A stretch of DNA of 64,000 nt from Chloroflexota bacterium. GTDB taxonomy: Bacteria > Chloroflexota > Anaerolineae > Anaerolineales > UBA4823. The translations under genes and the position numbers were made by a program. Below are positions 2,192-32,885 of this stretch, piece after piece. The stretch spans positions 1-64,000 of the forward strand of contig JAAYXE010000048.1 of the NCBI GenBank assembly GCA_012516075.1. The letters run 5' to 3'. The notes below the pieces were generated by a model. It ran no database searches and was not told the origin of the DNA. It saw only the letters and a list, made by a program, of their open reading frames with translations. The stretch's first letter is position 1. Each line of letters opens with the position of its first letter.

Positions 2192-3298
2192 GTGCGTGTT
2201 GGCCTGCTGATCTACGGTTCGCTCGATACCGTATCCGGTGGATACCTCTACGACCGGAAGCTGGTAGAGTATTTGCGCCGCCAGGGTGACAGCGTGGAGA
2301 TCTTCTCGCTGCCCTGGCGGAGTTACTTTCGCTGCCTGGGCGATAATTTTTCAGCCTCGCTGCTCTCTCGCCTTGCGCAGGCGCGCCTGGACGTTTTGCT
2401 GCAGGACGAACTCAACCACCCCTCGTTATTTTTGCTCAACAGGCGGTTAAGGCGCATAGTGTCATACCCGCTGGTTTCGATCGTGCATCACCTGCGCAGC
2501 AGCGAGCAGCGCCCGTCCTGGCAGAACGCTTTCTACGGCTGGATCGAGCGCCTCTATCTGAACAGTGTGCAGGCTTTCATATACAACAGCCAGACCACCC
2601 GCCGGGAGGTCCGGAGGTGGTTGAGGAACGAGGTCCCGTCAGCGGTTATTTACCCGGGCGGCGACCGCCTGCAGCCGGATCTGAGCAGTGCGGATATCCG
2701 GCAGCGCGCGCTGGAGCCCGGGCCGCTGCGCCTGCTCTTTCTAGGCAACCTCATTCCCCGCAAAGGCCTGCATCACCTGATCCAGGCCCTCAGCCGGCTG
2801 GCCAGCCTGCACCCCGGCGTACAGTGGGAGCTGAAGGCTGCCGGCAGTCTATCGGTTGATCCGGCTTACACGCGCCTCGTTCTGCGCCAGATCCGGCAGG
2901 CCGGGCTGGAGAGCTGCGTCCACCTGCTGGATACGGTACCGGATGCAGACCTGCGGCGGCTGCTCGAGAACAGCCATGTGCTGGCGACGCCCTCTTCTTA
3001 TGAGGGCTTCGGGATCGTTTATCTGGAAGCTATGGGTTATGGGCTGCCTGTCATCGCAGGAGCCGCCGGCGCCGCTGCCGAAATGGTCACCCACGGCGTG
3101 AACGGTTTTCTGATTCCAACGGGGGATGTGCCGCTGCTCGCAGAATGTCTGCTGGCACTGGCAGGCGATCGCGATCGTCTGGCCCGGATGAGCCTGGCAG
3201 CCCGGGAGCGCTACGCGGCTTTCCAGGGCTGGGAGGAGTCGATGCAGAACGCGCGCCAGTTCCTGCAGGAACTGCTCGAGAAGGGGACCATGAGATGA
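2192..3298 (+). CDS. GT4-family glycosyltransferase
   Basis: A 368-residue GT-B fold glycosyltransferase. It starts with GTG 2 bases after dcd and ends in an ATGA overlap with the following methyltransferase. The N-terminal half has the acceptor-side region beginning VGLLIYGSLDTVSGGYLYD. The C-terminal half has the GT4 donor-binding region: FLGNLIPRKGLHHLIQAL, then the E-x7-E type motif in SYEGFGIVYLEAMGYGLPV near residues 270-288. The substrate cannot be read from the sequence. Its tight coupling to a SAM methyltransferase suggests both modify the same glycan or glycolipid, but that is inference. Confidence 0.88.
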   Translation: MRVGLLIYGSLDTVSGGYLYDRKLVEYLRRQGDSVEIFSLPWRSYFRCLGDNFSASLLSRLAQARLDVLLQDELNHPSLFLLNRRLRRIVSYPLVSIVHHLRSSEQRPSWQNAFYGWIERLYLNSVQAFIYNSQTTRREVRRWLRNEVPSAVIYPGGDRLQPDLSSADIRQRALEPGPLRLLFLGNLIPRKGLHHLIQALSRLASLHPGVQWELKAAGSLSVDPAYTRLVLRQIRQAGLESCVHLLDTVPDADLRRLLENSHVLATPSSYEGFGIVYLEAMGYGLPVIAGAAGAAAEMVTHGVNGFLIPTGDVPLLAECLLALAGDRDRLARMSLAARERYAAFQGWEESMQNARQFLQELLEKGTMR

Positions 3299-4227
3299 TC
3301 CAGGAGATGGACTTTATCCGTTATCTGGCCGCCAAGAAAAGCGTGGATGATCGCGCGATCAACTCCCATGTCTGGGAGACGGCGATACAGGCGCTTTCCG
3401 CGCAGGGCCAGGCTCCGCTGCGGATCCTGGAAGTGGGCGCGGGGATTGGAACGATGATCGAACGTCTGCTGGAAAGGGGCGGCCTGCGCCGGGTTGAGTA
3501 CACCGCCCTGGACGAGCAGCCCGAAAACATCGCCCACGCCCGGCAGCGCCTGCCCGTCTGGGCAAAGGCCCACGGCTTCCATGTGCAGCAGGAAGTCGAT
3601 GGCGCGCTCACCATCAGCCGGGACGACATCCGCTTCCGGGTTTGTTTTCATCATGCCGAGGCACTGGAATTTGCCCGCCAGTTTGCCGGGCAGTACGACG
3701 GCCTGATCGCCCATGCCTTTCTCGACCTGTTCGATATCCCCACGGCTCTGGCGGCCCTGCTCCCCGCCTTGAAGCCGGAGGGTCTGGTCTATTTCAGCAT
3801 CAACTTCGACGGGGTTACGATCCTGGAGCCGGCTGTGGACCCCGAACTGGAGGATCAAATTCTGGCGCTGTATCACCGCAGCATGGACGAGCGCCAGATC
3901 CGCGGCCGGATATCCGGTGACAGCCGCGCCGGCCGGCGCCTGTTTGCTCATCTGCGGCAGGCCGGTGTGCAGGTTCTGGACGCCGGCGCTTCCGACTGGG
4001 TGGTGTTCCCCGGCGCGCAGGGCTATCCTGAAGATGAGGGATATTTCCTCCATTTTATTATCAACACCATCTTCCAGGCCCTACACGCTCACCCGGAACT
4101 GCCCGGGGAGCGGTTTGAACGCTGGGCTGCGAGGCGGCATGCCCAGATCGAGCGCGGCGAACTGGTTTACATAGCTCACCAGCTCGATCTGTGTGGGCGA
4201 CTGGAGAAAAAGCTCGTTTCCGCATGA
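3295..4227 (+). CDS. Class I SAM-dependent methyltransferase
   Basis: The start is ATG at 3295, overlapping the previous stop as ATGA and preceded by AAGGGG. An in-frame upstream extension exists but would lie inside the glycosyltransferase. The product has 310 residues. Motif I is ILEVGAGIGT (residues 44-53), followed by an acidic strand end (YTALDEQPENI) and a later FSINFDGV strand, as in Rossmann methyltransferases. The C-terminal 100 residues are helical and not assigned. The substrate is unknown. Translational coupling on both sides makes it the middle of a small operon. Confidence 0.85.
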   Translation: MIQEMDFIRYLAAKKSVDDRAINSHVWETAIQALSAQGQAPLRILEVGAGIGTMIERLLERGGLRRVEYTALDEQPENIAHARQRLPVWAKAHGFHVQQEVDGALTISRDDIRFRVCFHHAEALEFARQFAGQYDGLIAHAFLDLFDIPTALAALLPALKPEGLVYFSINFDGVTILEPAVDPELEDQILALYHRSMDERQIRGRISGDSRAGRRLFAHLRQAGVQVLDAGASDWVVFPGAQGYPEDEGYFLHFIINTIFQALHAHPELPGERFERWAARRHAQIERGELVYIAHQLDLCGRLEKKLVSA

Positions 4228-17860: not shown

Positions 17861-18238
17861 TCAGCGCTCGCAGCGGTAGGCAGCCCAGGCAATATCGTTT
17901 TCCCACAGTCTGACCGTAAAAACGTGCACATTCTCTGCCCGGATGCGTTCCATAAGCGCCAGGCAGAGAATGCGTGCAAAATGCTCGATGCTGGGATTCA
18001 GCCCCTGAAATTCAGCCAGATCGTTGAGAGTCTGATCGCGGTAGCGGGCGACCAGGGCATCCAGGTGGTTTTCGACATCGACGATATCTACCAGATAGCC
18101 GTGCTGGTCGAGATCATCTCCCTGGAGCTCAAGCTGCACCTGATAGTGGTGCGAATGTTTCTGGTTCTCCGGTCCCCAATCTCCGCCGATCAGGTAATGC
18201 TGGGCGACGAAATCTCTTTTAACTGCGACGGTATACAC
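17861..18238 (-). CDS. PTPS-family protein (6-pyruvoyltetrahydropterin synthase / QueD-like), Glu variant
   Basis: The chosen start is GTG 18238, preceded by AGGAGA; a longer frame would run into the upstream gene. The product has 125 residues. The zinc ligands His14, His28 and His30 (KHSHHY) and the NPSIEHFA segment (81-88) identify the family. In QueD and PTPS the catalytic Cys lies four residues before the HxH pair; here that position is Glu24 (PENQKH). Glu at this site is the mark of PTPS-III, which forms 6-hydroxymethyl-dihydropterin and can bypass FolB. Function is therefore more likely PTPS-III-like than queuosine synthesis. It is the last gene of a co-oriented cluster with ribA and a RibD-type reductase. 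Confidence 0.82.
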   Translation of the reverse strand: MYTVAVKRDFVAQHYLIGGDWGPENQKHSHHYQVQLELQGDDLDQHGYLVDIVDVENHLDALVARYRDQTLNDLAEFQGLNPSIEHFARILCLALMERIRAENVHVFTVRLWENDIAWAAYRCER

Positions 18239-18257: not shown

Positions 18258-19127
18258 TTACCGTTCTGGGCTGTCCGGGTAATCGTTTTTCCGCACAGCA
18301 ATGCGGCGGTACGCTGCCATGCCGAGCGCATATGCACCGTAGGCGATCAGGCCCACGCCAACCGCAGCCAGCACCCAGGGGCCGTAAGGCTGGGCTGCCA
18401 GGGCTTTCAGGGAATCTCCCAGGTCGCCGGCCTGCTGTGAGTTATAAGTCCAGGCGGCCTGAAAAAGGAAAATGCCGGTCACTGCGAAAACCAGGCTGCG
18501 GCCAACATTGCCGGCCCGGCCGAAGTGGGTAATCCACCGCTGCTCTTCCGCACTCATTTCCCACAGTTTGCAGTCTTCCACGAAGTCGGCTCTGAACGTC
18601 TGCACCAGGATGATCAGGCTGATCGCGGCGAGTGCAATGCCGGCTGTACCGGTTAACCAGCGGCCGGCAGGGAACGTGATCAGGCTCGCCACCAGCAGTT
18701 TGGTCCCCTGTTCGCTGCTGCCCACCTGCCCGGCCAGAATGTTCAATGCTGTCCACGCCAGGCTGGCGTAGACGATTCCTTCCAGCAGGAAAAGGCCGCG
18801 CTTCAGCAGACCGCCGGCATGAGCGCCAGTGTTTTCGGAATCGACCAGCGCACGCACAAACTGCCATAGCACGTAGCCGGCCAGGCCCAGCACGATGATC
18901 AGCAGCAGGATTTTCCCAGGGGGTTCCGAGCCGATTTTTAGCAGCGCCTCTTCCTGATCGACTTCGGCGCTGCGTACACCGAAGGAGGCCTGCAGGGCCA
19001 GCAGCCCGGTCGTGGCGAAGACGATCCCTTTGGCTACAAAGCCCAGGCGCGCCAGACGGACGACCCATGGTCTGGCTTCCTGGACCAGTGCTTCGGACTG
19101 CTCTTTTACTTCTTCGACGGTTGTCAT
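18258..19127 (-). CDS. DUF1206 membrane protein
   Basis: 289 residues with six predicted transmembrane helices arranged as three two-helix repeats. Each repeat starts with a similar segment (LARLGFVAKGIVFATTG; LLKRGLFLLEGIVYASLAW; FGRAGNVGRSLVFAVTG). This matches DUF1206, a family of unknown function. It lies 19 bases upstream of the PTPS-family gene on the same strand, so they are likely co-transcribed. No catalytic residues can be suggested. Confidence 0.83.
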   Translation of the reverse strand: MTTVEEVKEQSEALVQEARPWVVRLARLGFVAKGIVFATTGLLALQASFGVRSAEVDQEEALLKIGSEPPGKILLLIIVLGLAGYVLWQFVRALVDSENTGAHAGGLLKRGLFLLEGIVYASLAWTALNILAGQVGSSEQGTKLLVASLITFPAGRWLTGTAGIALAAISLIILVQTFRADFVEDCKLWEMSAEEQRWITHFGRAGNVGRSLVFAVTGIFLFQAAWTYNSQQAGDLGDSLKALAAQPYGPWVLAAVGVGLIAYGAYALGMAAYRRIAVRKNDYPDSPER

Positions 19128-19298: not shown

Positions 19299-20315
19299 TT
19301 ACGTGTAAGTAAGCAGGATCTGGATGGTTTCCCCGGGGCTGGTATCCAGCGTGTGGTAGGCTTCCTGGGCTTCGCGATAGGGGAAGCGGTGCGTGATCCA
19401 GCGAGACGGCCGCACGGCAGCCAGCATTTCCCAGGCGACTTCGAAGCGGCGGGTGTGGGTCCAGCGCCCGCTGCGCTCTGGCGACAGAGTGCTCACCTGG
19501 CTGCTAATCAGATGGATGCGGCTGCGGTGAAACCGTCCTCCCAGATCCAGGCTGGCGCGTTTTTCCCCGTACCAGGAGCCGATCACCAGCCGGCCTGCGA
19601 ATCCACACAGCGCCAGGGCCTGGTTCAACACGTCAGGCGTCCCCGAGAGTTCATAGACCAGATCGGCCAGATCCGTCCCCAGGATCTCCTTTACCTGTTC
19701 CAGAACCTGAGGTGCAAGCGGGTCAAAGCTGTGGTGTGCGCCGGCCTGCAGAGAGGCCTGACGGCGCATTTCGACCGGTTCCAGAGTGACCAGACACTGC
19801 AGCGGAAAGAGCGCCAGCAGCGCAGTGGTCAGCAGGCCAACGATCCCCTGCCCGAAGACGACCACCCGCTCTCCGATCACCGGCGCGCCATCGAGCAGGA
19901 AGTTGACGGCAGTTTCCATGTTGGGAAGAAAGACGGCGTCTTCGAGGGCGAGCTGCTCCGGAATGGGCAGCAGGCTGTCGACTGCGGCCAGAAAATGACT
20001 GGCGTGCGGCTGGAAAGCAAACACCTTCTGCCCTTCCCATGCCGGGTCCACATCTTCACCGCAGCGGATTACCTGACCAACGGCTGCATACCCGTATGAG
20101 AACGGGTAGGTGAATTTACCGCTCAGAGCAGGCAGTTTTGCGTCGATTTCCAGGTCACGGGGGAACTGGCCGCGGTAGATCAAAGCCTCCGTTCCGGGAC
20201 TGATGGCGGATAGTACAGTTTTCACCAGCACCTGACCGGGCTCAGGCTCGGGTAATTCTTCTTCGCACAGGCTAACCTGGTGTGGGGCGGTGAAATATAG
20301 AACGCTGCGCTTCAT
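19299..20315 (-). CDS. MDR-superfamily (zinc-type alcohol dehydrogenase-like) oxidoreductase
   Basis: 338 residues. An N-terminal GroES-like domain (to about 140) is followed by a Rossmann NAD(P)-binding domain with VVVFGQGIVGLL (about 149-160). The usual catalytic-zinc ligands are not clear: the typical Cys and GHE motif are replaced around LSAISPGTEALIYRG and YGYAAVGQV. The enzyme may therefore not bind zinc. It is six bases downstream of the RibD-type reductase, so it is probably in the same operon. The substrate is unknown. Confidence 0.83.
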   Translation of the reverse strand: MKRSVLYFTAPHQVSLCEEELPEPEPGQVLVKTVLSAISPGTEALIYRGQFPRDLEIDAKLPALSGKFTYPFSYGYAAVGQVIRCGEDVDPAWEGQKVFAFQPHASHFLAAVDSLLPIPEQLALEDAVFLPNMETAVNFLLDGAPVIGERVVVFGQGIVGLLTTALLALFPLQCLVTLEPVEMRRQASLQAGAHHSFDPLAPQVLEQVKEILGTDLADLVYELSGTPDVLNQALALCGFAGRLVIGSWYGEKRASLDLGGRFHRSRIHLISSQVSTLSPERSGRWTHTRRFEVAWEMLAAVRPSRWITHRFPYREAQEAYHTLDTSPGETIQILLTYT

Positions 20316-20321
20316 GCCATC

Positions 20322-21032
20322 TTATCCTTCTTCCGCGCAGATTTTTCCCCACAAAATGATATCTTCATCCATGCGGGTTATCCCAACATCTTCCAGGCGC
20401 AGCGGGGTGGGGAGCAGCGTTTCCTCTACGGCATTCAGCCCGCCGATAAAAAGCGGCGCAACCGTCAGAATCACCTGGTCTACCAGATGTGCTTGCAAAA
20501 AGCTGGTGATCACGCGCGCGCCACCTTCCACCATCAGGCTGCTGATTCCGGCCTGACCAAGGGCGGTCAGGAGCGCAGCCAGGGACAGCCGGCCAGAGGA
20601 GTCGCGGGGAATTTCCCAGATTTCGGCGCCGGCTGCCTGCAGCCGGCTGCGCTGCGCGGGACTGACCGGAGGGGCGGCCGCCAGGATTGGTGCCTGGCGG
20701 CCGCTCTGAAAGAGCCGCGCTTCAAGTGGGCATCGCAGATGGCTGTCCAGGATCACTGGCCTTGGGCTCTCACCCTCCGCCAGGCGTACGTTCAGGCGCG
20801 GGTTATCTGCCAGCACGGTGCCGATCCCAACCAGGAGCGCCTGGTGGGCGGCTCGCAGGCGGTGGGTCAGCGCCAGAGATGCCGGCCCGCTGATCGCCAG
20901 GGGCTCGCCCCGACGGGTGCTGATGCTGCCGTCCAGGCTTTGTGCATAGGACAGGGTGACCAGCGGTCTCCCGTATTTACGCCGGTGGGCCTCAGCTTCC
21001 GCCAGCCAGGAAGCGATGGGTACCATTTCCAT
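20322..21032 (-). CDS. Stand-alone RibD C-terminal-type pyrimidine reductase
   Basis: 236 residues with the RibD_C / dihydrofolate-reductase-like fold: RPLVTLSYAQSLDGSIS at the N-terminus, GIGTVLADNPRLNVR for NADPH and substrate binding, and LMVEGGARVITSFL near residues 175-188. The deaminase domain that precedes this one in bacterial RibD is missing. Stand-alone reductases of this kind (archaeal ArfC, fungal Rib7) reduce the GTP cyclohydrolase product before deamination. Its start overlaps the ribA 3' end by 41 bases. Confidence 0.85.
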   Translation of the reverse strand: MEMVPIASWLAEAEAHRRKYGRPLVTLSYAQSLDGSISTRRGEPLAISGPASLALTHRLRAAHQALLVGIGTVLADNPRLNVRLAEGESPRPVILDSHLRCPLEARLFQSGRQAPILAAAPPVSPAQRSRLQAAGAEIWEIPRDSSGRLSLAALLTALGQAGISSLMVEGGARVITSFLQAHLVDQVILTVAPLFIGGLNAVEETLLPTPLRLEDVGITRMDEDIILWGKICAEEG

Positions 21033-21663
21033 GGTGGCGGCGCTCTATGCTGCCGGTGAGTCCGGTAAGTTCCAGCAGATGGTGCATGCGCTGCTTTTTA
21101 GTAGACAGGTAAGCCAGGTTCTCCTCGTTGACGGTTGAGCGCATGGGGACTCGTTCGGTAACCGGAATCCCCAGTGCCTTCAGCCGTTCGATTTTGTCCG
21201 GGTTATTGGTCAGCAGGCGCACGGAGAGCACCTGCAGGTCTTCGAGAATCCGTGCCGCCAGCGTGTAATCACGTTCATCCGCCTGGTGGCCAAGTAAGAT
21301 ATTGGCCTCTACGGTGTCATATCCCTGGTCCTGTAAATTGTAAGCGCGCAGTTTGTCGAGCAGTCCAATCCCCCGACCTTCCTGGCGTAGATAGACGACC
21401 ACCCCGCGACCGGCTTCCGCAATTTGCTGCATGGCACGGTGGAGCTGTTCGCCGCAGTCACAGCGCTGGGAACTCAGAACGTCGCCGGTGAAGCACTCAG
21501 AATGAACGCGCACCAGAACGTCCCGGCAGTTTTCAACCTCTCCGTACGTGAACGCCAGATGCTCTTTATCGTCGTGGTTGTTGTGGTACAGGATGAGTTG
21601 AAATTCTCCCACAGCAGTGGGAATCCGCGCTGAAACCATGCGGGTAACCTGTAAAGATGTCAT
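20992..21663 (-). CDS. ribA: GTP cyclohydrolase II
   Basis: Converts GTP to 2,5-diamino-6-ribosylamino-4(3H)-pyrimidinone 5'-phosphate plus formate and pyrophosphate. 223 residues, stand-alone without the RibB domain. The zinc ligands are Cys57, Cys68 and Cys70 (CFTGDVLSSQRCDC). The YLRQEGRGIGL loop and LLTNNPDKI are intact. Tyr108, in KLRAYNLQDQG, matches the E. coli tyrosine that separates classical enzymes from the formyl-retaining variants, so the normal reaction is expected. GGGGGAAGGA precedes the ATG. No FMN riboswitch was seen upstream. Confidence 0.93.
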   Translation of the reverse strand: MTSLQVTRMVSARIPTAVGEFQLILYHNNHDDKEHLAFTYGEVENCRDVLVRVHSECFTGDVLSSQRCDCGEQLHRAMQQIAEAGRGVVVYLRQEGRGIGLLDKLRAYNLQDQGYDTVEANILLGHQADERDYTLAARILEDLQVLSVRLLTNNPDKIERLKALGIPVTERVPMRSTVNEENLAYLSTKKQRMHHLLELTGLTGSIERRHHGNGTHRFLAGGS

Positions 21664-21731: not shown

Positions 21732-22088
21732 TTAGCGCCGGTCTGACAGCAGAAGAGCAATCAGAACGACTTCGATCCCCTTCGTGATGTAGCCGAGCGC
21801 CCCTTCTGGCCAGCTCTTATCGCCGATGGCCACCCAGGCCAGAATGGTGATTAGAGTGTAACCGATAAATGCCCAGCGCACCAGTGAACGGTTCTGTTGA
21901 AAAAACGGAATTGGGAGAAAATAGGCTGCCAGCAGCGCCAGATACCCCAGCCCATTCAGGATGAAGAGCGGATCGGGGAAGAGCAGGCTGATATGAATGG
22001 CAGCCGTGATTAATCCCAGGATGCCGATACCGATTCGCAATAAACCAATCCGTTCTCCGGTGGTGCTTTTTGCCTGTGCCGTTTTCAT
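21732..22088 (-). CDS. Small four-helix membrane protein, unknown function
   Basis: 118 residues with four hydrophobic helices (about 16-32, 41-58, 68-86, 95-114). No motif was recognised. The start has AGGAGGATATTGAG upstream (minus strand), a strong ribosome binding site. It sits 23 bases after the flippase-like gene and before ribA in a co-oriented run. Only membrane topology can be stated. Confidence 0.65.
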   Translation of the reverse strand: MKTAQAKSTTGERIGLLRIGIGILGLITAAIHISLLFPDPLFILNGLGYLALLAAYFLPIPFFQQNRSLVRWAFIGYTLITILAWVAIGDKSWPEGALGYITKGIEVVLIALLLSDRR

Positions 22089-22111: not shown

Positions 22112-23137
22112 TTATGGATCCGTCGTTCGAATGGGCACCGGTTCAGCTGCGCCGGATCGCGAAAGCATCCCGGCCCACCATAACCCAAAAACGCCCGTGG
22201 CCACGTCGCGGATACGGATCAGCAGGCTGGCGCTCACACCTGCAGCCGATTCGGAGCCTAAAAGCTGCAGGATGAAAATCTGTCCCGCCTCCAGAGCTAC
22301 CAGCCCACCTGGAGCGGGCGTGAGAAAAGCCAGACGCGCGGCCGTGAGGACGATCACCGCCTGCGACAGGCTGAGATCGACGCCCAGAAAGGACAGCATC
22401 AGCCAGTATTCGAGCAGCATCAACGTCCATGTCAGAGCGGACAGCAGCAGCATCCAGAGGATGAGCAGAGGATTCTGGCGAAACAGGAAGGTTGTCTGTT
22501 TTTCCGCGGCGGAGATTACCGGCAGCAGCCGCCTGGCCGGCGGCGTCTTCTGTATCCGCGCGGGCAGACGCTGAATTAGAAATGAGATTGGGTGGAAGCC
22601 CCCGAGAAGCGCCAGAAAATACAGCAGCGGCAGCGCCAGCAGCACAGCGATCGCCAGCACGGTCTGTGAGTGTGCCAGCCAGTGGGCGAGCCCGCCGTTC
22701 AGGATCAGGACAAAACCGGCGCACAGGAAGGTGAAGCTGGCAGCCAGTTCGATGACTTTATCCAGGCTGACCGAAGCCAGGGCAGCAGCGCCCGGAAGAT
22801 GGTGCCTGCGCCGCAGCATGTATACCTGCAGAGGTTCGCCTCCGAACTGGCCCCCAGGGGTAAAGTAGCTGATGCCAAAGGAGGCCAGCCGGTATCCCAG
22901 CAGAGAGAGATACGAAACTTGATAACCCATCGCCCGTAAAATCAACCACCAGCGGCTGCTGAGCAGGAACAGGATCACTGTGTTTAAGGCGCCCAGGATC
23001 GCAAGCTGGTAGAGCCGAAGTGCCGCCAGCGTGTCCAGAACGGAATACAGCGGAATACTGCGCAGCGCCCAGAAGAGCAGGAGCAGCAGTAAAGGCCAGA
23101 GGATGAAATACCAGCGGCGAAGGGGGATGGATCTCAT
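22112..23137 (-). CDS. Flippase-like / lysylphosphatidylglycerol synthase TM-domain protein
   Basis: The start is ATG 23137, overlapping the upstream CDP-alcohol transferase stop as ATGA; a longer frame exists but lies inside that gene. 341 residues with about eight transmembrane helices. The RLASFGISYFTPGGQFGGEP segment and the following LDKVIEL match the UPF0104 / AglD-like family. Members include the membrane half of MprF and proteins thought to move or modify lipid-linked substrates. Coupling to a CDP-alcohol phosphatidyltransferase supports a role in a phospholipid or lipid-linked intermediate. Confidence 0.82.
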   Translation of the reverse strand: MRSIPLRRWYFILWPLLLLLLFWALRSIPLYSVLDTLAALRLYQLAILGALNTVILFLLSSRWWLILRAMGYQVSYLSLLGYRLASFGISYFTPGGQFGGEPLQVYMLRRRHHLPGAAALASVSLDKVIELAASFTFLCAGFVLILNGGLAHWLAHSQTVLAIAVLLALPLLYFLALLGGFHPISFLIQRLPARIQKTPPARRLLPVISAAEKQTTFLFRQNPLLILWMLLLSALTWTLMLLEYWLMLSFLGVDLSLSQAVIVLTAARLAFLTPAPGGLVALEAGQIFILQLLGSESAAGVSASLLIRIRDVATGVFGLWWAGMLSRSGAAEPVPIRTTDP

Positions 23138-24348
23138 GCAGCACGCTCCACGCGCCTCGCGCGCTTCTCTCCGGCGCGGTGATGGATCCATTCTTCTTCG
23201 GGGGTCCACAAAGAAAGCCGGCCGGTCCCCATAAAGAGCAGCATGGTGAACGCTACGATCAGGATGACCTGAGCGGGGGAGATTCCGGTGATCGCCTGCT
23301 GGGTTCCCACCAGTATCAGCCCCAGAATGGCGGCGATGCGGCCGGCGGCGCCCAGGGCTGCGGACAGCAGGATGATCCCTTCAGCAAGGCTGACAGCCAG
23401 GATCCACAGCATGTCAGAACCACTTCCGACCGAAAACGAGGCAATGCGGTTGAGAAGCTGGGCCAGCATGAGGCCGGCGGCCAGCAGGCGCAGGAAAACT
23501 GGCAGCCAGGAGCGCAGGCCCTGCGGGAGTACGGCTGCCTGCCAGGTTCCCGGAAGCATTCCACTCACCGCCAGCCAGTCGCGTCCAAATCCCGCCAGAA
23601 AGGGCAGAGCGAAAGCCACGGCAGCGATTTGCGTTCCCGGTGGGGCGAAGACCGGCCAGAGAACGGCGGCGATGAAACACATCTGCACACCGGCAAGGCC
23701 GCGCCGGGCCTGGTTGGGCGGCAGATCGAAAACGGGCAGCCCCATGCGCCGGCGCACCCACAGCCCTACGATAAACACATAGCGCGCCAGAGCGACGCTG
23801 GCATACCACCACGGCACCTGTCCGTACTGCACAGCCAGCAGCGCGCCGCTGAGCACGGTTATGCTGTCAAAGTTCAAATCCAGTGATTTTCCGAGCTGCG
23901 TGACATGGTCTGTGATGCGCGCCAGATAACCATCCAGAAAATCAGTGCTGATTGCCAGGGTGAAGAGCACCGCCGGAACCCAGCGCAGCCAGCCGGATGG
24001 CTCGCCAGCGAACAGGAACCCGCTGACGCCGGCAATCAACACGCCGCGCAGCAGGGTGAGCAGGCTGCCGGGGCCGAGGTCCGGTAGAAGCTGCCTGCCA
24101 GCGTCGGTCTCCTTATAGTTATCAGAAAGGCCTTTCCAGAGGATGCGCAGTTCAAAGGACAGTACTGCCGCGCAGATCAGCAGCCAGTGCAGCGGAAATG
24201 CCAGCCCGGAAAGCGTGGACCGGGGCTGTTCTCCGGCAGAGATCAGCAGATACCCTGCAGCCAGAAAGCCCAGCGAAAAAGCCGCAAAAGCCCACCAGCG
24301 TTTGCGCAGGCTGGATAAAGCCGCCCCATTGTCCCATCCTGTACTCAT
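23134..24348 (-). CDS. CDP-alcohol phosphatidyltransferase-family protein with extra membrane domain
   Basis: 404 residues. The complete family motif lies at 136-161, with Asp136, Asp139, Gly140, Ala143, Arg144, Gly153, Asp157 and Asp161 in the expected D-xx-DG-xx-AR-x8-G-xxx-D-xxx-D spacing. It should transfer a phosphoalcohol or phosphatidyl group from a CDP-activated donor at the membrane. It is about twice the usual 200-residue length. The C-terminal ~150 residues add several helices ending in a GRLSLWTPEEEWIHHR tail reminiscent of DoxX-like proteins. It is the first gene of the cluster; a palindrome-rich A/T segment lies just upstream. Confidence 0.85.
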   Translation of the reverse strand: MSTGWDNGAALSSLRKRWWAFAAFSLGFLAAGYLLISAGEQPRSTLSGLAFPLHWLLICAAVLSFELRILWKGLSDNYKETDAGRQLLPDLGPGSLLTLLRGVLIAGVSGFLFAGEPSGWLRWVPAVLFTLAISTDFLDGYLARITDHVTQLGKSLDLNFDSITVLSGALLAVQYGQVPWWYASVALARYVFIVGLWVRRRMGLPVFDLPPNQARRGLAGVQMCFIAAVLWPVFAPPGTQIAAVAFALPFLAGFGRDWLAVSGMLPGTWQAAVLPQGLRSWLPVFLRLLAAGLMLAQLLNRIASFSVGSGSDMLWILAVSLAEGIILLSAALGAAGRIAAILGLILVGTQQAITGISPAQVILIVAFTMLLFMGTGRLSLWTPEEEWIHHRAGEKRARRVERAA

Positions 24349-26086: not shown

Positions 26087-29000
26087 TTACATTGCTTTTT
26101 CGATGCCAACCGTCACTTCTTCGCCGTCAAAACTGGCGGTCACCTGGGCTGCCTCCGGCGGCGGAGCAGCTTCGATCAGCTCCAGGGTCAGGGTTTCTCC
26201 CATGATGTACTCCCGGTGCGCCTGAATCGCTTCTTTCAGGCCGGGAGTGGCCGTGACATACAGGCGGATGCGGTCGGCGATTTCGAAGTCGGCCTGTTTG
26301 CGCAGGTCCTGTACGCGGCGTACAAATTCGCGCGCCAGGCCTTCGTTAATCAGGTCGGACGTGAGCTCGGTCTGCAGGGCAGCCAGGTATGGGCCTTCTG
26401 AAGCGATGACCAGACCGCTCTTCGCCTCCGCCCGCACCTCGACTTCGTCCGGATGGATTTGAAGCACCTGACCATCCACGGTGATCTCAACCGGACTGCC
26501 TTCCAGAAGCCGGCGGGCGGCCTGCTCGGCGTCCAGCGCCAGGATGGCCTTGCTGACCTGCGGGAAAAGCGCTTTGTACTTCTGACCAAGCTGCTTCGGG
26601 AGCGGCTTGAGCGAGTACGAGACCGCCTCGCCGGTAGAACCCAGAGTGCAGATTTCCTTGACGTTCAGCTCATCCTTGAGCAGGTCGGCGTACTGTTCCA
26701 GGGCGCGCACTTCATCCGGGTTGGATACAGAGTAGGAAATCCTCGCCAGGGGCTGGCGAACTTTGATCGCCGCCTGGTTCCGTGCAGCATGGCCCAGGGA
26801 GGCCAGGCGCATCACGAGCTGCATATCTGCGTTCAGGGTTTCGAAGATCTTCTGCGTGTCGTAGACCGGCCAATCGGCCAGGTGCACGGATTCGGGCGCC
26901 TGTGGGTCTATTGAGCGTACCAGGTTCTGGTACATTTCCTCCGCCATAAAAGGCATGGTGGGGCCAAGCAGCTTGCTCAGCGTGACCAGCGTTTCATACA
27001 GGGCAGCATAAGCGGCCTGCTTGTCGGCGTCCGATTCGCTCTTCCAGAAGCGGCGCCGGGAGCGGCGCAGGTACCAGCGCGAGAGGTCATCGACGAAGTT
27101 CTGAATCGGGCGGGTTGCACCGGTGACATCGTAATTTTCCAGCGCGTTGGTTACGGTCCGCACCAGGGCATGCAGTTCAGAGAGCAGCCAGCGGTCCAGG
27201 TCGCTGTACTGGTAGGCGCTGCGGTCTTCCTGCGGCGTCCATTTATCCAGGTTGGCATAGGTGACGAAGAACGAATACACGTTCCACAGGGTCAGGGTGA
27301 AGTTTTTAACCACTTCTCCCACCAGGTCCACGGAGAAGCGGCGCTCCTGGCCGGCGGGGCTGGCCGTGTACAGGTACCAGCGGAAGGCGTCGGCGCCGTG
27401 GGTGTTGAGCACATCCCAGGGATCGACAACGTTCCCGCGCGACTTGGACATCTTCTGTCCTTCGGCATCCAGGATCAACCCCAGGCAGATGACGTTCTTG
27501 AAGGCAATCTGGTCGAAGAGCATGGTGCTGATGGCGTGCAGCGAGTAGAACCAGCCGCGCGTCTGATCCACAGCCTCGCTGATGAAGTCAGCCGGGAACT
27601 GCTGCTTGAAGGTCTCCTGGTTTTCAAAGGGATAGTGCCACTGGGCGACCGGCATCGACCCGGAGTCGAACCACACATCGATCAATTCGGGGACGCGCTG
27701 CATCTCGCCCTGGCATTCGGGGCAGGGGAAGGTGACTTCGTCCACAAAGGGGCGGTGCAGGTCGAGATTGCTCAAATCACGTCCGGAATACTCTGAGAGT
27801 TCGAGACGCGAGCCTACGCAGATCTGGTGGTGGCATTCCTGACACTCCCAGACCGGCAGCGGGGTGCCCCAATAGCGTTCGCGCCCCAGGGCCCAGTCGA
27901 TGTTGTTCTCCAGCCAGTTGCCGAATCGCCCGTGTTTAATGTGCTCCGGATACCAGTTGATCTGTTCGTTGAGAGCCACCAGTCGGTCGCGGAACTGGCT
28001 GGTGCGGATGTACCAGGTGCCGCGAGCGTAGTACAGCAGGGGGGTGTCGCAGCGCCAGCAGAAGGGGTAGGTGTGGGTGATGGTTCCGGCTCGGAAAAGC
28101 AGGCCGCGTCGTTCCAGATCCTGGATGATCAGCGGGTCGGCGTCTTTCACAAACTGACCACTCCACGGCCGCACTTCCGGGATAAACGTGCCGTCATCGG
28201 TTACGGTCATCAGCACGGGCAGATCGTACTCCAGGGCGGCCTGCATATCCTCGGCACCGAATGCCGGGGCGGTGTGCACCAGACCACTGCCGTCCTCGGT
28301 GGTGACGTAGTCCTCCATGACCACATAATAGGCCGGTTTTTCGGGCGGGACGAAGGTGAACAACGGGTGGTAGCGTTTGCCCTGCAGCTTTTTACCTTTG
28401 TAGGATTCGACAACTTTCACCGTTCCGCTCTGTACGGCCTCTTCTCCGAAGACTTTTTCGAGCAGCGGACGTGCCAGGATCAGGCGTTCGGTGCCGCCCT
28501 CGGGCAGCGGCGCCTCTACGGTGACATATTCGACATCGGGGTGCGCTGCGACAGCCACATTCCCCGGTAGGGTCCAGGGAGTGGTCGTCCAGACCAGCAG
28601 AGAAGTGCCCGGCTGGTCCACCAGCGGCATGCGCACGAAGACCGAGGGATCCACGGCTTCGCGGTAGCCCAGCGAAACTTCGTGGTCGGAAAGGGGGGTG
28701 CCGCAGCGGGGACAGTACGGGACCACCTTATAACCCTGGTAAATCAGGTCTTTATCCCATAAGGATTTCAGAATCCACCAGACCGATTCGATGTAGTCAT
28801 TCGTATAGGTGATGTAGGCATCATCCAGATTGACCCAGAACCCCAGGCGGTCGGTGAACTTCTCCCACTCCTGAATATACTCAAAGGCGGACTGGCGGCA
28901 GAGCTCGTTGAATTGGGCGATCCCATAGGCTTCGATCTGGCTCTTGTTCGTGAAGCCGAGCTTCTTTTCCACCCCGATTTCAACGGGCAGCCCGGGGGTA

Positions 29001-29257
29001 TCCCAGCCGCCGCGGCGCACGACGTGATGGCCGCGCATCACTTTGAAACGTGGGAAGACATCTTTGAAGGCGCGCGCCAGTGCGTGGTGCACACCGGGGC
29101 GGCCATTGGCCGTCGGCGGGCCTTCATAAAAAACATACTCCGGTCGTCCTTTGCGCTGGGAATCGGTCTTTTCAAAAATGCGGTGAATCTTCCAGAAGCG
29201 CAGGACGTTCTCTTCCAGCAAGATGGTGTTGAGTTTTGGAGAAACTGGCTTGAACAA
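26087..29257 (-). CDS. ileS: Isoleucyl-tRNA synthetase, eukaryote-like type 2
   Basis: Charges tRNA-Ile. 1056 residues, closer to the eukaryote-like IleRS2 length than to the ~930-residue bacterial type. The HIGH motif is swapped to Gly55-Val-His-His58 (NGRPGVHHAL). KMSKS is intact at 602-606. The CP1 editing domain carries TTTPWTLPGN and the GSGLVHTAPAFGAED segment with its aspartate, so post-transfer editing should work. Cysteine pairs (CPRCGTP, CWRCDTP, CQECHHQ) suggest zinc binding. It starts with TTG behind GGAGTAGAAG. It is probably read through from the T-box-controlled gene upstream, as its own 115-base leader has no T-box. Confidence 0.93.
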   Translation of the reverse strand: MFKPVSPKLNTILLEENVLRFWKIHRIFEKTDSQRKGRPEYVFYEGPPTANGRPGVHHALARAFKDVFPRFKVMRGHHVVRRGGWDTPGLPVEIGVEKKLGFTNKSQIEAYGIAQFNELCRQSAFEYIQEWEKFTDRLGFWVNLDDAYITYTNDYIESVWWILKSLWDKDLIYQGYKVVPYCPRCGTPLSDHEVSLGYREAVDPSVFVRMPLVDQPGTSLLVWTTTPWTLPGNVAVAAHPDVEYVTVEAPLPEGGTERLILARPLLEKVFGEEAVQSGTVKVVESYKGKKLQGKRYHPLFTFVPPEKPAYYVVMEDYVTTEDGSGLVHTAPAFGAEDMQAALEYDLPVLMTVTDDGTFIPEVRPWSGQFVKDADPLIIQDLERRGLLFRAGTITHTYPFCWRCDTPLLYYARGTWYIRTSQFRDRLVALNEQINWYPEHIKHGRFGNWLENNIDWALGRERYWGTPLPVWECQECHHQICVGSRLELSEYSGRDLSNLDLHRPFVDEVTFPCPECQGEMQRVPELIDVWFDSGSMPVAQWHYPFENQETFKQQFPADFISEAVDQTRGWFYSLHAISTMLFDQIAFKNVICLGLILDAEGQKMSKSRGNVVDPWDVLNTHGADAFRWYLYTASPAGQERRFSVDLVGEVVKNFTLTLWNVYSFFVTYANLDKWTPQEDRSAYQYSDLDRWLLSELHALVRTVTNALENYDVTGATRPIQNFVDDLSRWYLRRSRRRFWKSESDADKQAAYAALYETLVTLSKLLGPTMPFMAEEMYQNLVRSIDPQAPESVHLADWPVYDTQKIFETLNADMQLVMRLASLGHAARNQAAIKVRQPLARISYSVSNPDEVRALEQYADLLKDELNVKEICTLGSTGEAVSYSLKPLPKQLGQKYKALFPQVSKAILALDAEQAARRLLEGSPVEITVDGQVLQIHPDEVEVRAEAKSGLVIASEGPYLAALQTELTSDLINEGLAREFVRRVQDLRKQADFEIADRIRLYVTATPGLKEAIQAHREYIMGETLTLELIEAAPPPEAAQVTASFDGEEVTVGIEKAM

Positions 29258-29363: not shown

Positions 29364-29382
29364 AGCCGGTTTTTAACCGGCT
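29364..29382 (-). other. 8-bp stem-loop over the stop codon of the upstream IleRS-like gene
   Basis: AGCCGGTT and AACCGGCT pair with a 3-nt loop and include the stop codon. No U-tract follows in either direction. It may be an intercistronic processing or stability element between the two synthetase genes. Confidence 0.4.
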
Positions 29383-32300
29383 GCAGGTGGGTTCTTTCCC
29401 GCTCGCCGCACGCCCACAAGCACCTGCTCGCCTTCCAGGCGCAGCTTTTCCACGCTGGCATCCTGCGGCGGCGGCGAGGCGACCAGATGGGTGGAGAGTG
29501 TTTCCGTGCAGATATAATCTGCCCATTCCTTGAATACGCTTTCCAATCTCTGCGCATCCTGGACCCCATCTTTTTGCTGCCGGGTTTCAAACTGGTAATA
29601 GGTCTCGATGCGCTCTTCGATCTGGAAGCCGGCTTCTTTTCGCAGCGCCTGAATCCGGCGCACCAGCTCGCGTGCCAGGCCCTCGCGGCGCAGTTCCTCG
29701 GTCAGGACGGTGTCCACGGCGAGCGTCAGACCGCCTGCACTGGCTACCGCCAGGCCCGGGGAAGGTTGAGTGTGCACCTGAACTTCCCCGGGTGTAAGCT
29801 GCACGCGTTCGCCGTCGACCATTAATTCCACCGGCTCTCCTGCGTTCAGGCGGGAAGCCAGGCTGGCTGCATCTGCGGCCTGCAGCGCGGCGCGCACCTG
29901 CGGGAAGCGGGCGCCAAAACGCGGCCCCAGCAGTTTATTGTCGGGCAGGAGCTGGTAGGTTACGAGTGTGCCGGGATCCTCCACCAGCTCGAAGCGCTTG
30001 ACATTCAGCTCATCCTTGATGATTTCCACGAGGTCCGCGTTGAGCGAGCGGCGGCCTGCATCGTAGGCCAGCGCCCTGGCCAGCGGCTGGCGCACCTTTA
30101 ACCCCGCGCTGCTGCGCGCGCTCAGACCCAGGCTGGCCGCCTGGCGCGCCAGATCCATCTGCTCCAGCAGGTCTTTGTCCACAGCCGACAGGTCTGCTTC
30201 CGGCCAGCGGGTGTGGTGGATGCTTTCGAAGGCCTGCGGGAAGGCGCTGCGCACCAGATTCTGGTAGATTGCCTCGGTCACAAAAGGTGTGACCGGCGCC
30301 AGCAGGCGTGCCAGTTTAACCAGCACATGGTACAGGGTGGCGTATGCCTCCTGCTTGTCTGCATCCTGCTCGCTCTTCCAGAACCGCCGGCGGCTGCGGC
30401 GTACATACCAGTTGGTCAGATCATCGATTAACTGGCTGACCGCCAGCGAGGCCAGATAGAATTCAGAGGCTTCCATCCTGTCGGTCAGGACGGCGTTGAC
30501 CTCGTTCAGCCGGCTCAGGATCCAGCGGGCGAGCACGTGCTCGCTGCCGGGGGTTGGACCTTCCGGGGTGTGGGGATCAAAAGCATGCGACGGGGTCCAG
30601 CCATCCAGGTTGGCGTAGGTCACGAAAAAGCTGTACACGTTCCACAGCGGGATCAGGAACTGCCGCCGGGCTTCGTCGCCGCGCCCGTAGCCGAACAGCA
30701 GGTCGTTTTCGGGCTTCTGACTGAAGTACAGCCAGCGCATCACGTCCACACCCATCCGGTCTGCAGCTTCATTAAACTCGATGGCATTGCCCCAGCTTTT
30801 ATGCATGGGGCGCCCATCCTCAGCCACCAGGGTGGCGTAACCCAGATTCTGCAGGAAAGGTGGGCTCTGGTCGAGCACCGTGGCCATCGCCAGCAGGCTG
30901 TAGAACCAGTTGCGGAACTGGCCGGGGAAGGATTCGGTGATCCACTGCGCCGGATACCAGGTGCGCCAGTAATCCGGGTCGCTGCGGTAGCGCAGCGTGC
31001 TGAAGGGGACGATCCCGGCATCCAGCCAGGGATTGCCGACATCGGGGATGCGGCTCATCCGGCCGCCGCACTGTGGGCAGGCGAGCTTCACTGCGTCGAT
31101 GTGGGGACGATGGGGCGTATGCCCGGCAAACTGATCCCAGCCGCTGACGGCGCGCGCCTGCAGCTCTTCATCATCTCCAATCACGACAAAATGCTGGCAG
31201 CTTTCACACACCCAGATTGGCAGCGCCAGCCCCCAGTAGCGCTTCTTGCTGATCATCCAGTCGTGCATGTTGCGCAGCCAATCCATCTCGCGCTCGTACC
31301 CGAAAGCGGGGATCCAGCGGATCTTGTCGACCACGTCCATGATCTGGTAGCGCAGGCTGGAGGCCTTCTCCTCCGCTGTAAGTTCGTGGCGCGGTTTATC
31401 GTAGACTTCGCCCATGCTGATAAACCATTCATCCACCAGGCGGAAAACCAGCTCCGTTTTGCAGCGCCAGCAGGTGGGGTAGCGGTGCCGGTAAGGGGCA
31501 ACTTTGTAAAGCAGCCCCTTTTGCTCCAGGGCGGAAAAGATCGGCCCGGCGACCTGTGAGACATGCTGGCCGGTCAGCCAGCCGAACCCCTCGGTGAAAT
31601 AGCCCTGGTCATCCAGCGGGGCGACCGGCGGCAGATGATATTCGCGGCCAAGCTGGAAGTCCTCAGCGCCGCAGCCCGGTGCGATGTGCACGATGCCGGT
31701 GCCTTCCGCCTCGCCGACGGCGTCCCACAGAATCACGCGGTGGGACTGCGCGGCGCTGTAAGGCAGATCGCGCTTCAGTTCTTTCAGGTGCGTGTACCCG
31801 CCGGGTTCCTGGGCTGCGGGCAGGTCATCGAAGGGCCCGGAGTAGGTCCAGCCCTCCATCGCTTCGCCTTTGAGCTCGCCAAGCACATGGTATTCGCCCT
31901 GCAGCATGTGCTGCGTGCCTTTTGATAAATAGAGCACCTCGTTACCCTGGCGCACCTTCAGGTAGACCAGTTCGGGTCCTACGGCGGCGGCGACGTTGCT
32001 GGTGAGCGTCCAGGGGGTGGTTGTCCACACCAGCAGCGCTTCCGGAAGGCCGGTCTGAGGGTCCCTGCGCGGTATAAACCCCGTTCCGCTGGGGTCGGGC
32101 TGGGTCAGGGGGAAGCGCAGGGTCACACTGTCGTGTGTCAGCTCGGCGTAGCCATCGGTGACGATTTCGTGCTGGCTGATGCCCGTTGCACAGCGCGGGC
32201 ACCAGGGCATGACGTCGGCGCCGCGGTATACCCAGCCGTTCTCCCAGCACTTTTTCAGGAACCTCCAGATCATGTAATTGTTCTCGTTGGAGAAGGTGAA

Positions 32301-32885
32301 GTAGCTGCCTCCCAGCTTTTCGGACCCCAGCTGCCCGACGATCTGCTCCACCGTGCCTGTCACCGGCCCGTGGGGCCCTTCGATCGTGACTTCCTGAGAA
32401 GGATCTTCTACCAGTTTGTCCGCCAGCCAGCGCAGCTGGTCGGGGTCGTTCCAGTCCATCCAGTATCCCAGCCGGATCGACTGCTCTGTCTGGACGGCTG
32501 CGTAGCGCAGTACGCGTGCCTTGCACAGCCGCACAAACGCTTCCAGTCCAAACGCCTCGATATCCTGTTTCGAGCGGAAGCCCTGATCTTTCTCCACCTC
32601 CACTTCGACCCACAGACCCTGGCAGTCGAAGCCGTTCTGGTAGCGCAGCTGATGACCGCGCATGGTCTGGAAGCGCTGCATCAGGTCTTTATACGTGCGG
32701 CCCCAGCCGTGATGCACGCCCATCGGGTTGTTAGCCGTGATCGGCCCGTCGATAAACGACCAGGGAGGGTCATCCTTATGGAGCTGGCAAAGCTTTTCGA
32801 AGGCGCGGCTCTCTTTCCAGAACTGCAGCAGTTCTCGCTCCTGTGCCGGAAAATCGACTTTATTCGAAACTTCTTTGAAAGCCAT
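29373..32885 (-). CDS. ileS: IleRS-like class I tRNA synthetase with altered HIGH and KMSKS motifs
   Basis: 1170 residues, longer than any usual IleRS. The HIGH motif reads Gly56-Val-His-His59 (NPMGVHHGWG). The KMSKS loop is replaced by Met694-His-Lys-Ser-Trp698 (GRPMHKSWGN), keeping one lysine. A CP1 editing region is present (TTTPWTLTSN; GTGIVHIAPGCGAED), as are Cys-rich zinc sites (CPRCATG, CWRCKTE, CPQCGG). An isoleucine-type T-box directly upstream supports an isoleucine-related role. It could be a second IleRS, a back-up with altered kinetics, or a paralogue with a new substrate. AGGAGAGAGA precedes the ATG. Confidence 0.85.
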   Translation of the reverse strand: MAFKEVSNKVDFPAQERELLQFWKESRAFEKLCQLHKDDPPWSFIDGPITANNPMGVHHGWGRTYKDLMQRFQTMRGHQLRYQNGFDCQGLWVEVEVEKDQGFRSKQDIEAFGLEAFVRLCKARVLRYAAVQTEQSIRLGYWMDWNDPDQLRWLADKLVEDPSQEVTIEGPHGPVTGTVEQIVGQLGSEKLGGSYFTFSNENNYMIWRFLKKCWENGWVYRGADVMPWCPRCATGISQHEIVTDGYAELTHDSVTLRFPLTQPDPSGTGFIPRRDPQTGLPEALLVWTTTPWTLTSNVAAAVGPELVYLKVRQGNEVLYLSKGTQHMLQGEYHVLGELKGEAMEGWTYSGPFDDLPAAQEPGGYTHLKELKRDLPYSAAQSHRVILWDAVGEAEGTGIVHIAPGCGAEDFQLGREYHLPPVAPLDDQGYFTEGFGWLTGQHVSQVAGPIFSALEQKGLLYKVAPYRHRYPTCWRCKTELVFRLVDEWFISMGEVYDKPRHELTAEEKASSLRYQIMDVVDKIRWIPAFGYEREMDWLRNMHDWMISKKRYWGLALPIWVCESCQHFVVIGDDEELQARAVSGWDQFAGHTPHRPHIDAVKLACPQCGGRMSRIPDVGNPWLDAGIVPFSTLRYRSDPDYWRTWYPAQWITESFPGQFRNWFYSLLAMATVLDQSPPFLQNLGYATLVAEDGRPMHKSWGNAIEFNEAADRMGVDVMRWLYFSQKPENDLLFGYGRGDEARRQFLIPLWNVYSFFVTYANLDGWTPSHAFDPHTPEGPTPGSEHVLARWILSRLNEVNAVLTDRMEASEFYLASLAVSQLIDDLTNWYVRRSRRRFWKSEQDADKQEAYATLYHVLVKLARLLAPVTPFVTEAIYQNLVRSAFPQAFESIHHTRWPEADLSAVDKDLLEQMDLARQAASLGLSARSSAGLKVRQPLARALAYDAGRRSLNADLVEIIKDELNVKRFELVEDPGTLVTYQLLPDNKLLGPRFGARFPQVRAALQAADAASLASRLNAGEPVELMVDGERVQLTPGEVQVHTQPSPGLAVASAGGLTLAVDTVLTEELRREGLARELVRRIQALRKEAGFQIEERIETYYQFETRQQKDGVQDAQRLESVFKEWADYICTETLSTHLVASPPPQDASVEKLRLEGEQVLVGVRRAGKNPPAAG

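Follow-up and report, generated by a model that had tools for sequence, protein, structure and literature searches.

The gene at positions 17861-18238 (minus strand) of the window, by which we mean the whole 64,000-nucleotide stretch of Chloroflexota DNA analysed here, encodes a new variant within the PTPS superfamily and lies in a widespread gene cluster related to that of PTPS-IV. Its product is probably a T-fold enzyme of a dedicated, conserved pathway that leads to a pterin- or pyrimidine-derived compound carrying a sugar and a methyl group and belongs to neither folate nor queuosine synthesis. An invariant glutamate (Glu24) in a remodelled triad, synteny over 80 loci from bacteria and archaea, and several entry routes to one intermediate, with GTP cyclohydrolase II (GCH II) present without riboflavin synthesis, argue for this reading.

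Identity and active site of the PTPS-family protein

The protein, referred to here as E-type, is the only PTPS copy in its draft genome (97.06% complete, 6.18% contamination).

17861-18238, minus strand: E-type PTPS-family gene (WGPENQKHSH); open reading frame 18238 to 17861, GTG start, 125 aa
18199-18197, 18169-18167, 18157-18155 and 18151-18149, minus strand: codons of H14, E24, H28 and H30, respectively

A plus-strand frame over 17861-18238 was discarded as a gene; the coding frame is that of the minus strand. The scan of the window returned no tandem repeats and no Rfam families.

Membership of the PTPS superfamily (PF01242/COG0720), which an earlier note had assigned from the sequence, is upheld by the profile match (92.2 bits against Pfam PF01242, cut-off 22.4) and by the T-fold of the AlphaFold2 model (mean pLDDT 95.9). 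The nearest solved fold is SCO6650 (3d7j; Z 18.7, rmsd 1.5, 125 residues), followed by human PTPS (Z 16.6), Escherichia coli QueD (16.4) and Plasmodium falciparum PTPS (1y13; 14.9). The best NCBIfam model is QueD (TIGR03367), and the match of 43.4 bits falls well below its cut-off of 89.25; the protein also scores under the cut-off for the 6PTHBS subfamily.

The zinc-site motif reads P23-E24-N25-Q26-K27-H28-S29-H30 and continues with H-Y (PENQKHSHHY). The earlier placement of Glu24 four residues before His28-x-His30, in the column of the QueD cysteine, was confirmed by an alignment that included annotated QueD proteins and PTPS proteins of the CExxHGH type. Conservation was assessed in an alignment of 81 rows, made up of the window protein and those of 80 loci (80 of the 160 confirmed relatives from the genome-contig scan), with a mean column identity of 76%. 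Residues H14, E24, N25, H30 and E113 are each found in 81 of the 81 rows, and Ser29 is kept in 77; at position 28, 71 rows have His and 10 have Asn. His14 is expected to be the third zinc ligand beside His28 and His30. The places of the catalytic Asp and His of QueD are taken by Arg/Lys67 (79/81) and Asp/Glu68 (80/81). Together with Glu24 in place of Cys, this means that the entire Cys-Asp-His triad is remodelled, beyond the cysteine alone. Among all sequences retrieved, each of the 92 rows that reach 125 bits or more with the family profile shows the pattern E...[HN][SA]H; the window protein is counted twice among them (as WIN and as L001). A conserved Cys elsewhere in the active site, the finding that the earlier note had set against its own reading, did not emerge from the 81 rows: the commonest Cys column, position 92, holds Cys in only 60 of them and lies away from the motif.

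The ten proteins with Asn at position 28 form a subclade (L027, L030, L037, L058, L060, L063, L064, L070, L076 and L077). Neither RibA nor RibD_C was found in the DNA fetched for these loci, and several of them carry a gene for a potassium/proton antiporter or a 2-phosphosulfolactate-phosphatase-like protein between the dehydrogenase gene described below and the PTPS gene. Two further relatives (L115 and L116, from genomes G050 and G079) branch with the haloarchaeal E-type proteins and have lost the E-x3-H-S-H motif.

The protein is very probably not a folate or queuosine enzyme of a described type

The signatures compared here are those of QueD (PTPS-I), PTPS-II, PTPS-III and PTPS-IV. In an excerpt of PMC5041015, the motifs are given as CxxxHGH for QueD, CxxxxxHGH for PTPS-II and ExxHGH for PTPS-III, with CExxHGH as a possible hybrid. 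The window protein departs from all of them: its ExxxHSH spacing differs from the PTPS-III motif, the QueD cysteine column is Glu in 81 of 81 rows, and no Cys precedes H28-S-H30 as it would in PTPS-II. Aligned with the CExxHGH proteins, Glu24 lines up with the Cys and the invariant Asn25 with the PTPS-III glutamate. The hybrid motif itself occurs in three Chloroflexota proteins from genomes of the class (L112-L114) and in the second PTPS of L046; none of the three loci L112-L114 carries the cluster.

The earlier note had suggested that the gene bypasses FolB in the manner of PTPS-III, cleaving dihydroneopterin triphosphate to 6-hydroxymethyl-dihydropterin for folate synthesis. A glutamate near the zinc-binding histidine pair speaks for such a role, as does the occurrence of FolK without FolB in 6 of the 32 genomes that match the PTPS family strongly (E < 1e-48; own genome included; 65 of 199 genomes of the class match at all). 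However, the own genome encodes one FolB, along with two FolK matches, one of which adjoins FolB and has a stop in frame, and one full and one partial GTP cyclohydrolase I (GCH I), so the pattern expected of PTPS-III, with FolB missing and folate synthesis kept, is not the one seen. Both FolB and FolK occur in 18 of the 32 PTPS-bearing genomes, and 8 of the 32 keep the PTPS gene with neither. Because PTPS is retained whichever folate genes are present, and because of the motif spacing, we reject the FolB bypass, which is conceivable at most for the six genomes with FolK alone; a cluster devoid of folate genes and the replaced Asp-His pair likewise make a PTPS-III-like function very improbable.

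A divergent QueD or another preQ0-type enzyme is more improbable still, to the point of being hardly credible. The superfamily and the top-scoring NCBIfam model would fit it, but the score lies far under the cut-off, CxxxHGH is lacking, and the annotated QueD group stands apart in the tree (support 98/88). The own genome lacks a full QueC and returned only a partial match of 24.7 bits, and a convincing QueC (E < 1e-50) was found in only 2 of the 32 PTPS-bearing genomes, both of which hold a second, QueD-like PTPS. The grouping with queC and queE against which the earlier note had weighed its reading was not found. The database records seen call such proteins QueD or 6-carboxytetrahydropterin synthase, a naming that stands although the E-type proteins tested lack the QueD motif and queuosine genes. 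Of the earlier interpretation, the substitution of Glu for Cys and the family assignment thus hold, the FolB bypass falls, and the alternative that it offered, a step in the cluster around the gene, is the best fit.

The cluster around the PTPS gene is conserved and widespread

The cluster genes of the window are the following, with their occurrence near PTPS in the 80 loci.

19299-20315, minus strand: BchC-like medium-chain dehydrogenase (MDR); within 2.7 kb upstream of PTPS in 45 of the 59 loci with at least 3.5 kb upstream
20322-21032, minus strand: RibD_C-type pyrimidine reductase without deaminase domain; 42 of 80 loci
20992-21663, minus strand: GTP cyclohydrolase II (RibA); 37 of 80 loci
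21732-22088, minus strand: small protein of 118 aa with a weak DUF7475 match under the cut-off; recurs in the cluster
22112-23209, minus strand: flippase-like LPG_synthase_TM membrane protein; 29 of 80 loci
23134-24348, minus strand: CDP-alcohol phosphotransferase with an intact DGxxARx8GxxxDxxxD motif; 21 of 80 loci
2192-3298, plus strand: GT4 glycosyltransferase, displaced from PTPS in the window genome; 75 of 80 loci
3295-4227, plus strand: SAM methyltransferase of the module (start 3295 chosen over 3145); 53 of 80 loci

These counts, to which MDR in 59 loci is to be added, come from tblastn with self-chosen bit-score limits on 80 of the 160 relatives, and many of the loci are cut by contig ends. 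Where 7 kb or more is available on each side of PTPS (30 loci), MDR was found in 24, GT4 in 28, the methyltransferase in 25, RibD_C in 21, RibA in 19, the flippase-like protein in 16 and the phosphotransferase in 14. Gene clusters across loci were built from mechanical longest-ORF calls, which did not enter the module counts; the sequence cluster of the 118-aa protein has members in 26 of 82 such sources (the 80 loci, L001 and the window).

The MDR protein has conserved ISxGTE and YGY motifs, which presumably stand where zinc alcohol dehydrogenases have their Cys and His ligands; its best named model is bchC (74.7 bits, under the cut-off of that model). The nearest solved relatives of the RibD_C protein are RibD_C-type reductases, and RibA, the sole copy found in the genome, has the zinc cysteines and the tyrosine of E. 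coli GCH II. For the phosphotransferase, PgsA is the one solved sequence relative at E ≤ 0.001, and among the solved sequence relatives the methyltransferase has only a weak match. Of the 68 loci with 2.6 kb or more of sequence downstream of PTPS, 64 have a GT4 homologue no further than 1.5 kb downstream. In the window, lspA-rluD comes after GT4 and the methyltransferase (2192-4227), an arrangement also seen in L009 and L020; this indicates that the module was split by rearrangement here.

Two features of the window lie outside the shared gene set. A DUF1206 membrane protein (18258-19127, minus strand) separates MDR from PTPS in this genome alone, and its sequence cluster has no members in the 80 loci. 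Two adjacent IleRS-type tRNA synthetases (26087-29257 and 29373-32885, both minus strand) are 36% identical; the KMSKS of the first corresponds to HKSWG in the second, which is perhaps divergent or non-canonical.

The module occurs in Anaerolineae, in deltaproteobacterial MAGs and on haloarchaeal plasmids, the last with E-type PTPS at 46-54% identity together with MDR, methyltransferase and GT4; of the five haloarchaeal regions examined, three have the CDP-alcohol phosphotransferase and two GCH III. A like module accompanies PTPS-IV in Streptomyces fungicidicus, Thiodictyon, Methylosinus and Peteryoungia, and Streptomyces anthocyanicus has PTPS-IV without such a module. In two PTPS-IV clusters, a gene annotated as cytochrome b adjoins RibD (L097, 11528-12085; L101, 12055-12582); that of L101 matches cytochrome b561 and might act as a redox partner of the product in the membrane. 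The PTPS-IV neighbourhood is partly in print already: PF00925 and PF01872 near PTPS-IV are reported in an excerpt of PMC5445326, which labels PF00925 GTP cyclohydrolase I, where the Pfam name is GTP cyclohydrolase II. The same two families lie at 20322-21663 of the window. In the literature searched, we found neither the E-type, its MDR-GT4-methyltransferase-phosphotransferase context or the archaeal members, nor a publication that joins the parts of the cluster; excerpts of PMC13259868, PMC8129789 and PMC6169038 say nothing about it.

Several points weigh against a dedicated pathway. RibA (37/80) and RibD_C (42/80) do not stand beside every PTPS copy, and, where a genome encodes both, GCH II and PTPS are no more than 10 kb apart in 16 of 29 cases. 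Cluster genes are absent within 10 kb of PTPS in L033 and from the 18-kb stretch of L119 (genome G014), and other loci are reduced to GT4 (L010) or to GT4 and methyltransferase (L048, L056 and L062). A presumed zinc ligand is Asn in 10 of 81 rows, the DUF1206 gene interrupts the order in this genome alone, the source genome is a draft, and membership of the large GT4 and methyltransferase families gives no indication of the acceptor.

Different routes from GTP converge on one intermediate, apparently outside riboflavin synthesis

Cluster copies of GCH II have the zinc cysteines in 37 of 37 cases and the tyrosine of E. coli GCH II in all 36 readable copies. The Streptomyces cluster enzyme has Met at the place of the tyrosine, with a creatininase gene next door; we take this Tyr-to-Met form to stop at the formyl intermediate. 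The creatininase-family BrbF is a proven formylaminopyrimidine formamidase, which converts the formylamino-pyrimidine into the diamino-pyrimidine, and GCH III, which replaces GCH II in the Haloarcula cluster, yields the formyl compound (both in an excerpt of PMC9478397). The three arrangements, GCH II with Tyr, GCH II with Met plus creatininase, and GCH III, thus all lead to 2,5-diamino-6-ribosylamino-pyrimidinone phosphate, on which RibD_C-type reductases act.

The cluster cyclohydrolase does not appear to serve riboflavin. Lumazine synthase (RibH) gave no match in the own genome (the control was positive in 14 of 14 genomes), and 29 of the 32 PTPS-bearing genomes have GCH II, of which 28 lack any lumazine synthase match. 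The 2 of 32 genomes with a match are G151, with a clear lumazine synthase beside its only GCH II, and G124, with a marginal match and no GCH II. GCH II without lumazine synthase in most PTPS-bearing genomes argues that the cyclohydrolase has another purpose. In the one-contig genome G027, GCH II is present twice and lumazine synthase gave no match.

Alternatively, the cluster could serve riboflavin or F420 (FO) through 5-amino-6-ribitylamino-uracil, with PTPS as an accessory. GCH II and RibD_C are indeed the early riboflavin/FO enzymes, PTPS-IV has the same neighbourhood, and the excerpt of PMC5041015 refers to an unpublished role for PTPS-IV in F420. We nevertheless regard this as improbable: besides the missing lumazine synthase, the RibD_C protein lacks a deaminase domain, FO synthase was not seen among the cluster proteins scanned, and GT4 and the methyltransferase would be left without a role. 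GCH II together with RibD_C should therefore not be taken for riboflavin prototrophy. The cluster instead points to an unexplained GTP-derived metabolite in two domains of life, in hosts that have GCH II and lack lumazine synthase.

A proposed pathway to a glycosylated and methylated product

For the dedicated pathway that we favour, the product and activity are inferred, which counts against it, and so are the PTPS step within the pathway, the order of steps, the zinc binding, the role of Glu24 and the lipid link. The reactions of GCH II and RibD_C are the established enzymology of their families. GCH II would open GTP to 2,5-diamino-6-ribosylamino-pyrimidinone 5'-phosphate, and the RibD_C protein would reduce the ribosyl group at C1' to a ribityl chain. 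BchC oxidises a secondary alcohol to a ketone, and the BchC-like dehydrogenase may do the same to a secondary alcohol of the side chain; if the ketone lies at C2', its closure on the 5-amino group would give a dihydropterin without GCH I. The PTPS-fold enzyme would hold zinc through His14, His28 and His30 and anchor the amino-pyrimidine ring through Glu113, with Glu24 acting as acid/base in place of Cys, and may close the ring or trim the side chain. GT4 would then add a sugar and the methyltransferase a methyl group. The intact-motif CDP-alcohol phosphotransferase and the flippase-like protein in the cluster suggest a link to lipid, either of the product itself or of one of its forms.

Taken further, the lipid link leads to an amino-pyrimidine- or pterin-headed phospholipid, in which the phosphotransferase would lipidate the ribityl-phosphate, GT4 would glycosylate it and the flippase-like protein would turn it out, a possible but doubtful outcome. 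Six of the seven positions of the phosphotransferase motif are kept in 21 of 21 copies and the remaining one in 20 of 21. Among the solved relatives of GT4, phosphatidylinositol mannoside mannosyltransferases rank first (1.7e-15) and biopterin glucosyltransferases lower (3.2e-10), and the cytochrome b genes of the two PTPS-IV clusters, one matched to b561, would also suit a membrane product. On the other hand, the phosphotransferase and flippase-like genes lie near only 21 and 29 of 80 PTPS copies, and GT4 similarity does not show the acceptor.

A bolder version, which we consider rather unlikely, makes the cluster a pterin route independent of GCH I. The RibD_C reduction at C1' and the MDR oxidation at C2' would together amount to the Amadori step of GCH I; the ketone would condense with the 5-amino group to dihydroneopterin phosphate, whose side chain the Glu24 PTPS would cut or reshape before sugar and methyl are added, giving a membrane-linked pterin glycoconjugate. 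Were this true, the glycoconjugate would be expected in Chloroflexota, deltaproteobacteria and haloarchaea, and the PTPS-IV modules would extend its range to actinobacteria and proteobacteria. With the cluster described here, the loosely described PTPS-IV neighbourhood becomes a concrete pathway hypothesis that is testable with a handful of enzymes.

Comparison with known systems

The early riboflavin pathway (GCH II and RibD_C, with archaeal ArfA/ArfB and bacterial BrbF) has the same first enzymes, or functional replacements of them, as those that feed the cluster. The cluster, in contrast, goes on to MDR, PTPS, GT4 and methyltransferase, and lumazine synthase is unmatched in 30 of the 32 genomes, own included.

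PTPS-III resembles the window protein in having a Glu close to the zinc histidines and in its fold (Plasmodium PTPS, 1y13), whereas the window Glu lies one residue further from the histidines, which form HSH instead of HGH, and E-type has no folate genes nearby and a FolB in its own genome. QueD likewise shares the fold, the His ligands and the ring-anchoring Glu, with which E113 aligns; E-type differs in Glu for Cys, Arg/Lys-Asp/Glu for Asp-His, and the lack of queC/queE neighbours.

The cyanobacterial and Chlorobium pterin glycosides (cyanopterin and limipterin) would be a similar kind of product, made by a pterin-type enzyme, a GT4 enzyme and a methyltransferase. Such glycosides start from GTP cyclohydrolase I, whereas the linked entry enzyme in the cluster is GCH II.

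PTPS-IV, a COG0720 subfamily represented by the nearest solved relative, SCO6650, shares GCH II, RibD_C, MDR, GT4, methyltransferase and CDP-alcohol phosphotransferase as neighbours. SCO6650 is not known to contain zinc or to have PTPS activity. The two types are only 26-32% identical and, in an unrooted tree with long branches (58 rows; 34 of the 87 strong rows taken, 28 by random draw plus chosen ones), form separate groups, PTPS-IV at 100/99 and E-type with the haloarchaea at 100/99. The PTPS-IV signature FGPAQ, with Ala for Glu24, is replaced by WGPEN in the window and by GPEG or GQEG in haloarchaea, and the old Asp-His pair is Arg-Asp in E-type and Asn-Tyr in PTPS-IV. His30, which is Ala in PTPS-IV, is kept in E-type, so that three zinc ligands are possible in the enzyme of this cluster.
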